Shown piece after piece: positions 1-2,821 of a DNA stretch of 64,000 nucleotides. The stretch is from positions 1 to 64,000 of the forward strand of contig NZ_CAJYOJ010000041.1 of assembly GCF_913776295.1 (NCBI RefSeq). The letters run 5' to 3'. Position 1 is the stretch's first letter, and the number at the start of each line of letters is the position of its first letter. Both the position numbers and the translations under genes were made by a program. Source of the DNA: an uncultured Pedobacter sp. (GTDB lineage Bacteria; Bacteroidota; Bacteroidia; Sphingobacteriales; Sphingobacteriaceae). The notes under the pieces are model-generated. The model ran no database searches, was not told the DNA's origin, and saw only the letters and a list, made by a program, of their open reading frames with translations.

Positions 1-22
1 CCCTTCGTTTCCGTTGGGGTTG

Positions 23-52
23 CAAAGGTAAGCATCTTTTCCTAACTTCCAA
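23..52 (-). promoter_or_regulatory. Leftward promoter, third of three tandem copies
   Basis: Minus-strand TTG (50-52), 19 bases, then TACCTTTG (23-30). Three perfect promoters about 110-125 bp apart suggest a highly expressed unit to the left, for example an rRNA operon. That target is inferred because the transcript leaves the window at once. Confidence 0.78.
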
Positions 53-288: not shown

Positions 289-749
289 AGGTTTTGAAAT
301 GATTAATGGAGGTTTCTACGTAACCCTATGGTTTTCAACGGGAAAAATTTTAATCCGAAACAAAACAATTAGGCGTTCTGCCTGTTTATTGCCGTTCTGG
401 ACGGCTGCAGGAAATGATAATGTCCGTTGGAAGGGCTGGCGAAAAGATCCGTCGACTACGCCCAGGATGACCGACCGGCCGGAGAAAGCCGTTAAACTTC
501 CGAAGTTCCCCTACGCTAAATCCTTTGATACTTCGGAAGACAACCGCCACCCAAACTCCAGCAGGCAGGCGACAGCAGTGGAAAACCTGGAGCAGAGCGA
601 GGATTTGGAGCGGATAGCGGGGATATCCTTATATAGCGGCACAACAACTGCTTTGCTAAAAAAAGCATTAAATAAGTGACTGATACAACTATCGGGATAT
701 TAAACAATAATTAATACTTTTACCGCTTAATAAACCAGCCTTATTATCA
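289..749. other. Intergenic region with a repeat-like end, no convincing gene
   Basis: A 126-codon open frame at 299-679 has no recognisable domain, a random-looking composition and no promoter, so I treat it as non-coding. Positions 609-625 (AGCGGATAGCGGGGATA) resemble the right end of an intergenic element also present at 5538-5650. Nothing else is recognisable. Confidence 0.4.
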
Positions 750-1715
750 ATGAAAATTACGCTTAAAACATACTTACCTTTGCTCTTTATCTTTATCGCA
801 AAGCTTGGCCAGGCTCAGCATTACAAAAATGAGCTCGTAGTGATTACTGAGAATGATGCCTACATTGATATTACGAGCGATAAATATTACACCAATGGTT
901 TTTTTATTCAATACAGGCATGCTTTAAATGGTGAGAACCTGAAGAACGGCCGTAGTAAAGAGGTTATTGGTTTTGAACTCGGTCAGAAAATATACAATCC
1001 TTATTATAGCTACGCTCCTAACCCTGCCCTGCACGACCGGCCTTTTACCGCCTATCTTTATGGTGAGGCCAATTACAGCAGGTTTTACCAAAACAAACAG
1101 CTTTTAAAGGTTTCGGCACAGGTTGGCCTTACTGGTAAGGATGCCCTTGGAGAAGAATTCCAGAAAACTTACCATAAACTGGTTGGCCAAAATCAAATTG
1201 CCGGCTGGGAATATGGATTAAATAGCGAACCCACTTTAAATCTGGGCATAGCATACAACAAGCGTCTGTTGGCTACCCCTAACGAAATCTTTGATGTTAC
1301 CGGAACTACATCAGCAGCGGTGGGCAATGTAATAACCAAAGCAAATATTGGCGCTTTACTCAGATTTGGGAAATTTAATGAAATGGATGGTTCAGCTGCA
1401 TTTAATAGCCTGGTAAGCAACAATCATCAAAATAATGCTAAACGTAAATATGAACTTTTCCTTTCGGTGGCACCACAATTACACGCTATAGCTTATGACT
1501 CCAGCCTACAAGGCGGTCTGCTCCTGAATGATAAGGGACCGATTACCTTTAAGCCGAAGCCAATGGTTTTTACCACGCAGGTAGGTTTAACCTTCGCCAT
1601 TGCACGCTGGACAGCCAATTATACCGCTACCTTTACTTCAAACGAAGTTAAAAACAGTGCCACCGGCTATCGTTATGCCTATTATAGTCTTGCTTACCGT
1701 TTTAGTAAAAACTAA
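750..1715 (+). CDS. LpxR-like outer-membrane lipid A deacylase
   Basis: A 321-residue protein with a Sec signal peptide (about residues 1-22, cleavage near QA-Q). The mature part matches the LpxR/DUF2219 family, outer-membrane barrels that remove the 3'-acyloxyacyl group of lipid A. The signature is present: N35-D36 in ENDAY followed by the DKYYTNG segment at 44-50. The rest shows alternating aromatic/polar strands and ends in the barrel-type YRFSKN. The stop codon overlaps the start of the next gene in TAATG, so the two are probably translationally coupled. Family assignment is good; the true substrate in this organism is inferred. Confidence 0.8.
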   Translation: MKITLKTYLPLLFIFIAKLGQAQHYKNELVVITENDAYIDITSDKYYTNGFFIQYRHALNGENLKNGRSKEVIGFELGQKIYNPYYSYAPNPALHDRPFTAYLYGEANYSRFYQNKQLLKVSAQVGLTGKDALGEEFQKTYHKLVGQNQIAGWEYGLNSEPTLNLGIAYNKRLLATPNEIFDVTGTTSAAVGNVITKANIGALLRFGKFNEMDGSAAFNSLVSNNHQNNAKRKYELFLSVAPQLHAIAYDSSLQGGLLLNDKGPITFKPKPMVFTTQVGLTFAIARWTANYTATFTSNEVKNSATGYRYAYYSLAYRFSKN

Positions 1716-2821
1716 TGAAGAAATTACTCATTTTTATTTTCGTTGTTATAGGCTGCTCATTAACAAAGGCTCAAATTGCTCCTGAAAATCATTCTATCAT
1801 TCTTAAACCCATATTTGGCACACATGTCAATAACGACCAGGGACATTTGTTTCAGGACCAGATTACAGGATTTGATGCGGCTTATTTTAAAGACATCAGC
1901 CAGAACAGTGATAAATGGATCGGATTCAGCGGCGCTCAGTCTTATGGGATCGGTTTTGTTTTTAGGGATTTAAGCAAACTGAAAGGCACAAAAGATACTT
2001 CGGCCAATGCATTCGGACAAGTATATGGCTTAGTGGCCCAGATGGATTTCCAGTTGTTTAAAATCGGAAAAGCCAAATTTAATTTTACGCCTGGCGTTGG
2101 GCTGGGTTACACTAACAAGTATTACTATAATAATACCAAAAACAGGTTTTTGGGAAGTCCGGTTAACGAAATCATTAAAGCAGATTTAGGCATGGAACTG
2201 CCAATCGGAAGATATACTGGTCTATTGGCTGGTTTCGGTTTTCTACATGTGTCTAACGGAGGAGCTACTGTTCCCAATGGTGGATTAAATACAGGGAATA
2301 TCTACATCGGGCTTAAACTCAATAATCCAAAAACCTTAACTACTGCGCAAAAGAGTAATTACACTACTTTACAGCGGAATTCAATTGAGCTTAGTGCCGG
2401 TTTGGGCGCGAGGGGCGTATTTGGCAATAGAGCGAAAAGCTTATACAAAAGCGGGATTTATGCGGGTTACAATTTTTACCTGAATGATGTCATGTCGCTT
2501 AAGGCAGGGGCCGATGCAGTTTATTATTATACCACCTTCGATCCGGATAAATTTAATGATACATTCCAAAACTACGGTACTTCGTATGACAGATGGCGCA
2601 CAGGCCTTAGTATCGGTGCTGACATCAATTTATGGCGGGTAACGGTTGCGGCTCAGATCGGGAAATACATCCACTATAACCGATTGATGGAAAAAGCAAA
2701 CTGGTACTGGACATTTGGACCGACTTTTAATATCACCCCACATTTGGGTTTACAGGCCAAAACCTATATGCACTTTGCCCAGGCTGATTACGTAAACTGG
2801 GGGATCGTATACCGGTTTTAA
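1715..2821 (+). CDS. PagL-like acyloxyacyl hydrolase (lipid A 3-O-deacylase family)
   Basis: A 368-residue predicted outer-membrane barrel ending in Phe. The N-terminus is a signal peptide; cleavage after KA19 seems likelier than lipidation, although VIGC14 resembles a lipobox. The middle carries the PagL-type HxSNG motif (H178, S180, N181) with a following PNGGLN (187-192), in the place of the PagL catalytic His/Ser region. PagL removes the 3-O-linked acyl chain of lipid A. The C-terminal half (after about residue 210) is a second barrel-like portion longer than classical PagL, typical of Bacteroidota homologues. It overlaps the LpxR-like gene by one base and converges with the next gene, overlapping its stop by four bases. 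Confidence 0.75.
   Translation: MKKLLIFIFVVIGCSLTKAQIAPENHSIILKPIFGTHVNNDQGHLFQDQITGFDAAYFKDISQNSDKWIGFSGAQSYGIGFVFRDLSKLKGTKDTSANAFGQVYGLVAQMDFQLFKIGKAKFNFTPGVGLGYTNKYYYNNTKNRFLGSPVNEIIKADLGMELPIGRYTGLLAGFGFLHVSNGGATVPNGGLNTGNIYIGLKLNNPKTLTTAQKSNYTTLQRNSIELSAGLGARGVFGNRAKSLYKSGIYAGYNFYLNDVMSLKAGADAVYYYTTFDPDKFNDTFQNYGTSYDRWRTGLSIGADINLWRVTVAAQIGKYIHYNRLMEKANWYWTFGPTFNITPHLGLQAKTYMHFAQADYVNWGIVYRF

Follow-up and report, generated by a model that had tools for sequence, protein, structure and literature searches.

Salmonella holds both pagL and lpxR within a single organism, where the two genes sit at separate loci and are under separate control. In another member of the Bacteroidota, P. gingivalis, LpxR (PG1333) is described as a 3'-O-deacylase, and the same paper reports that this organism has no PagL-like gene (PMC12704123). 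Tri- and tetra-acylated lipid A has been reported for Echinicola, and the authors name lpxR as a possible cause of the tri-acylated form (PMC8707317). The LpxR literature describes a mechanism that uses Ca2+ and a histidine-activated water and gives H122 as the catalytic residue (PMC6260217), and for Yersinia LpxR the N9A, D10A, S34A, Q118A and H122A variants are reported as inactive (PMC3486919). Among the matches listed in our literature searches (titles and abstract openings, with incomplete coverage and few subscription journals) there was no description of an lpxR-pagL operon or of a double-barrel PagL, and the matches listed for two barrels per chain included nothing on PagL.

The overlapping gene pair

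The locus studied here lies at the beginning of the window, a stretch of 64,000 nucleotides from an uncultured Pedobacter sp. The first gene, an lpxR of the second-copy type (750-1715, forward strand), encodes a protein of 321 aa with a probable 12-stranded outer-membrane barrel, and the second (1715-2821, forward strand) encodes a PagL-type double-barrel outer-membrane protein of 368 aa, identified from its match to PF09411 and from an AlphaFold2 model. Both proteins begin with a stretch that by eye resembles a signal peptide. The two ORFs share one base within the sequence TAATG (1713-1717, forward strand), where the stop codon of lpxR runs over the start codon of the PagL-type gene, and from this overlap we infer that translation of the two genes is coupled.

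The original prediction had claimed an LpxR-like gene with ND and DKYYTNG motifs, a PagL-like gene with an HxSNG motif and a TAATG overlap between them, and all three were borne out. ND corresponds to residues 35-36 and DKYYTNG to residues 44-50 of a protein that matches PF09982 (LpxR) over residues 14-318 (E 2.1e-62, 211.4 bits vs a curated cut-off of 26), and the HxSNG motif appears as HVSNGG at residues 178-183 of a protein whose match to PF09411 (PagL) covers residues 102-200 only (E 4.6e-9, 36.9 bits vs a curated cut-off of 23). Neither ORF matches an NCBIfam model above cut-off; the families and the coupling are upheld by profiles, fold comparison and conservation. Among 19 junctions compared (that of the window plus 18 from the 23 paired loci described below) 13 read TAATG, one reads TGATG, which is again a one-base overlap, and four read TAATATG, which leaves a gap of one nucleotide, with the close spacing lost in the remaining one (L048).

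Upstream of the pair a conserved promoter-like block, AACAATAATTAATACTTTTA (703-722, forward strand), ends 27 nt before the lpxR start. In an alignment of 18 upstream regions (the window's own plus 17 from the 23 paired loci) the block is identical in 15 and has one mismatch in each of the other three (L046, L047 and L052), and 5' of it most of the sequence has diverged. Within the block TACTTTTA resembles the Bacteroidota -7 box TAnnTTTG. Given the conserved block and the gene overlap, the simplest reading is that a single promoter would serve both lpxR and the PagL-type gene.

The contigs of all 20 close loci (L034-L053) break off between 138 and 1,226 bases 5' of lpxR, and that of the window itself begins 749 bases upstream of the gene; the pair probably adjoins an rRNA operon that breaks assemblies. 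Several further observations were made in the surrounding sequence. The element TGCAAAGGTA is repeated three times before the pair (window positions 21-30, 146-155 and 257-266, the third copy with one change), matches to the Flavo-1 small RNA just over the gathering score lie near the pair in two relatives (L040:50-115 and L037:5624-5690), and at positions 1-123 of the P. frigidisoli locus (L052) a 16S rRNA gene begins on the opposite strand, this being the sole rRNA match in the 17 loci scanned.

In order to compare the LpxR protein with known enzymes we utilized a profile of 22 rows (the window plus all paired loci but L039 and L047, hence 21 of 23), which matches the Salmonella LpxR structure 3fid with an E of 1.7e-12. 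The alignment places T48, Q138 and H142 on T34, Q118 and H122 of 3fid, and N35-D36, which lie ahead of the aligned part, were equated with N9-D10 by their position in the family. All five residues are invariant in the 22 rows, and across 73 rows of the wider LpxR family N35, D36, Q138 and H142 are present in every row while position 48 carries T in 71 rows, S in one and M in one. Equivalents of all the residues that are essential in LpxR mutants (N9, D10, S/T34, Q118 and H122) are thus kept in the window protein. The LpxR model has about 12 main strands at low confidence (pLDDT 57.5), and a Foldseek search with this low-confidence model returned 3fid first (E 6.6e-9, TM 0.59).

Structure and active site of the PagL-type protein

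The AlphaFold2 model of the PagL-type protein, built with 40 rows and having a mean pLDDT of 88.5, contains eight strands in residues 26-204 and a further eight in residues 223-367. The N-terminal PagL barrel (residues 26-204; 1790-2326, forward strand) carries H178, S180, N181 and N192, and in a comparison with VIA-align its top match is PagL 2erv (Z 17.4, rmsd 2.2 Å, 146 of 150 residues, model residues 28-202). The predicted C-terminal barrel (residues 216-368; 2360-2818, forward strand) matches generic eight-stranded barrels such as the OmpA barrel 1qjp (Z 14.3, model residues 218-368), and in Pfam it reaches only a sub-threshold match to OMP_b-brl (E 0.0027, 18.4 bits vs 28.7). With this second eight-stranded barrel at about residues 217-368 the protein is not a single-barrel PagL, and the double barrel, which the original prediction missed, is the more unusual feature of the pair. 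A Foldseek search with the whole model was uninformative, giving among the 50 matches listed porin-like alignments that span both barrels at TM 0.13-0.27, and the PagL-type protein used as a single-sequence query against the PDB returned no match.

In two genomes of the family the two barrels are separate ORFs, which share a one-base TAATG overlap in one (G023, L033:1483-2618) and in the other (G024, L032:1498-2639) overlap by 4 or 16 bases according to which start codon is used, and at both loci each of the split ORFs has by eye its own signal-peptide-like start. As the second ORF is separate and has such a start, the C-terminal barrel seems able to stand alone and is at the same time tied to the PagL barrel; alone it is probably an exported protein. 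Longer PagL frames with matches to the C-terminal barrel profile were found in families f4 and f9, at 8 of the 30 best-scoring PF09411 loci from 198 genomes of the phylum (L166-L171, L186 and L187), and the double-barrel PagL architecture is present in three Bacteroidota families (f1, f4 and f9). Duplication of one barrel into two was considered and rejected, the profile comparison of the halves giving a probability of 2-5% and common descent being without sequence support. A clustering of conserved positions at the outer rim of the C-terminal barrel was likewise rejected, as the difference (15 of 86 outer positions vs 4 of 59 inner ones) was not significant (Fisher p 0.08). Clusters of PagL-type genes were also observed, with four matches in a row at G189:C4:43321-45985 and two at G021:C91:13163-17036.

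Within the PagL barrel seven residues (H178, S180, N181, P187, N188, G190 and N192) show no variation, either across the 27 full-length family sequences or across the 40 rows of a larger alignment (the window and 39 of the 53 loci described below). In a profile alignment to 2erv (E 0.012) the His and Ser of the PagL HYS motif are matched by H178 and S180, and the Glu that follows the motif His by 14 residues is matched by N192. This Glu is the third member of the Ser-His-Glu triad of P. aeruginosa PagL, and the window protein has Asn192 in its place. Across 60 Bacteroidota PF09411 loci (L116-L145 and L166-L195, the best-scoring ones, some of which repeat the pair itself) the position is Asn in 56 and Asp in four; 55 of the loci matched a pattern (51 Asn, 4 Asp) and the other five (L166-L169 and L171) were read as Asn by eye. 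Since Asn or Asp occurs in all 60 loci, the replacement of Glu by Asn appears as a phylum-wide feature and not one peculiar to the window gene.

A change so old and fixed is in keeping with a shift in the function of the PagL-type protein, such that LpxR would be a true lipid A 3'-deacylase and its partner would act on another ester lipid, transfer acyl chains or only bind lipid A. The C-terminal barrel is also the more conserved of the two, with at least 90% identity at 30 of 145 columns vs 17 of 179 in the PagL barrel, a comparison that is partly biased as both scan patterns used for collecting loci lie in the C-terminal barrel. However the His, the Ser and the neighbouring Asn residues are without exception in the 40 rows and the barrel fits PagL to within 2.2 Å, which together point to a working site, and Asn is able to act as a triad member in other hydrolases. 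We consider the shift in function possible but doubtful and read the site as a Ser-His-Asn/Asp variant that is likely to be active.

Distribution, origin and selection

A scan of genome contigs with the PagL-type alignment gave 53 loci. LpxR lies just upstream in 23 of these, including all 20 loci of at least 75% identity (19 from Pedobacter and one from a Sphingobacteriaceae MAG), two tightly spaced Pedobacter loci at 49% (L054 and L055) and one Pedobacter locus at 46% with a gap of 193 bases (L058); at the other 30 no LpxR was detected within the flank covered. Pedobacter type strains with the pair include P. terrae and P. zeae. Among 151 genomes of the family LpxR was found in 125, PagL in 64 and P0002-like proteins in 50, but the LpxR and PagL-type genes were adjacent in only seven (places compared by eye). 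Six of the seven belong to the window's genus, which is represented by 20 genomes, each with at least one LpxR, and LpxR was present on 7 of 30 family loci retrieved with a P0002-like search. Reading the lists for the 198 phylum genomes gave PagL in 102, LpxR in 23 and both in 15, with adjacency in two, namely the window's genome and a second genome (G202) in which the PagL gene is broken. Such pair counts are lower bounds as contig ends can hide pairs. The degree of conservation had been left as a check by the original prediction, and these counts show the pair to be narrow, belonging to a small group centred on Pedobacter.

The second genome, which comes from another family, was considered as a case of independent pairing, in which LpxR comes after a PagL fragment and a short ORF. 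It was set aside and is not counted as support because the fragment is without its 5' part and adjoins an IS110-type transposase gene and because the other 26 genomes of the genus are unpaired. The fragment lies between the transposase gene and the LpxR gene (L203:5606-7248).

The window's genome contains two lpxR genes, and the other copy, on contig C22, adjoins lon (Lon_C E 5.6e-86). A lon-type ORF is present at 27 of the 30 unpaired LpxR loci of a first tree (L001 included; absent in L106, L108 and L115), which makes the place beside lon the usual site of lpxR. In this first tree, built from 24 paired rows and 30 others, the paired LpxRs form one clade (100/99). An obligate partnership of this LpxR subclade with PagL was proposed and then dropped, as six unpaired copies (L146, L149, L151, L153, L154 and L165) joined the clade in a second tree. 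The genomes of these six gave no PF09411 match, and the second lpxR lineage would either predate the pairing or have lost its partner there. For this second tree we drew on 20 further LpxR stretches from other genera, 19 of which gave a match (L158 did not). Only nine of its rows are labelled paired and three of those labelled solo (L139, L141 and L145) are paired copies fetched again, and as a result of this mislabelling its group count of five changes is inflated.

Paired PagL-type genes also form one clade (94/85, in a tree combining 37 unpaired rows with 12 of the 24 paired ones), and a single origin of the pair would fit this grouping. The one clade would also be seen if the pairing were a lineage accident, in which a second lpxR came to lie next to a PagL gene in an ancestral member of this Pedobacter group and was inherited without joint function, and in line with this no further intact pair was seen by eye in the 198 phylum genomes and the other 26 genomes in the genus of G202 lack one. 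However gene order has been kept down to 46-49% protein identity (L054, L055 and L058, the last with its wider gap). Within the close group the upstream block and the gene junction are retained, and both genes have a low dN/dS. Relative to the window genes, in 18 comparisons drawn from the 23 paired loci, dN/dS ranged from 0.031 to 0.071 for lpxR (9 of 18, with dS saturated in the other 9) and from 0.025 to 0.081 for the PagL-type gene (11 of 18 with unsaturated dS). Ratios this low indicate purifying selection on both genes and argue that the pair is no accident, and we regard a mere accident of lineage as unlikely.

Predicted function and comparison with known systems

The reading that we favour, at a probability of roughly 0.6, is that the pair forms one transcription unit encoding two outer-membrane lipid A O-deacylases which between them remove both ester-linked primary chains. 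A Ca-dependent LpxR would remove the 3' ester-linked chain of lipid A by way of a His-activated water, and the PagL barrel would remove the ester-linked chain at position 3 with a His-Ser pair aided by Asn and not by Glu. The second barrel probably serves to hold the lipid, to present it or to stabilize the enzyme within the membrane, and joint expression of the two genes would yield a lipid A that keeps mainly its amide-linked primary chains. Because two late acyltransferase homologues (PF03279) are encoded in the window's genome, its lipid A is likely to carry secondary chains, and the exact product is not predictable. The analysis establishes the families, the PagL fold, the essential residues, the overlap of the genes, their conservation and purifying selection on them, and infers the substrates, the positions cut, joint expression and the part played by the second barrel.

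The paired lipid A remodelling unit that was originally proposed therefore holds up in part. The families, the coupling, the LpxR residues and the His and Ser of PagL speak for it, whereas the PagL-type partner has Asn at the Glu position and an unforeseen second barrel; the unit is restricted to a small group centred on Pedobacter. Comparison of structures and active sites recovered the 2erv fold (Z 17.4) with its His and Ser and put 3fid on top for a weak model, but the triad Glu is replaced by Asn. Against a joint need for the two enzymes, most relatives keep one gene without the other adjacent (LpxR in 125, PagL in 64 and the pair in 7 of the 151 family genomes), and as single genes are far commoner than the adjacent pair neither gene needs the other. 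We hold it unlikely that the three barrels (LpxR, the PagL barrel and the extra one) form a single processing station in the outer membrane, in which the extra barrel would capture or position lipid A on the surface of the cell and the two active sites would strip the 3' and 3 chains sequentially without release.

If the favoured reading of two deacylases in one unit is true, one transcript would hard-wire the loss of both ester-linked primary chains from lipid A, and the pair would offer a way into the question of how hypo-acylated lipid A arises in Bacteroidota. The double-barrel PagL in turn raises the question of what role a well conserved second barrel plays for a membrane enzyme.

In comparison with known systems, the LpxR protein shares with Salmonella LpxR (3fid) and P. 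gingivalis LpxR (PG1333/PGN_1123) the profile, the essential Asn-Asp, Thr, Gln and His and, on a low-confidence model, a probable 12-strand pattern and the top fold match. It differs from these in belonging to a second-copy subclade that adjoins a PagL-type gene, and at the position of E128 in Salmonella LpxR it has Asn (N148), a position that in the 73 rows of the family is Tyr in 48 and Asn in 21. The PagL-type protein has in common with P. aeruginosa PagL (2erv) an eight-stranded barrel, superposed at 2.2 Å over 146 residues, and the HxSN motif, but unlike 2erv it carries a second C-terminal eight-stranded barrel in the same chain and its gene overlaps lpxR. As in Salmonella both enzyme types occur within one organism, whereas in the window they are encoded by one overlapping pair.
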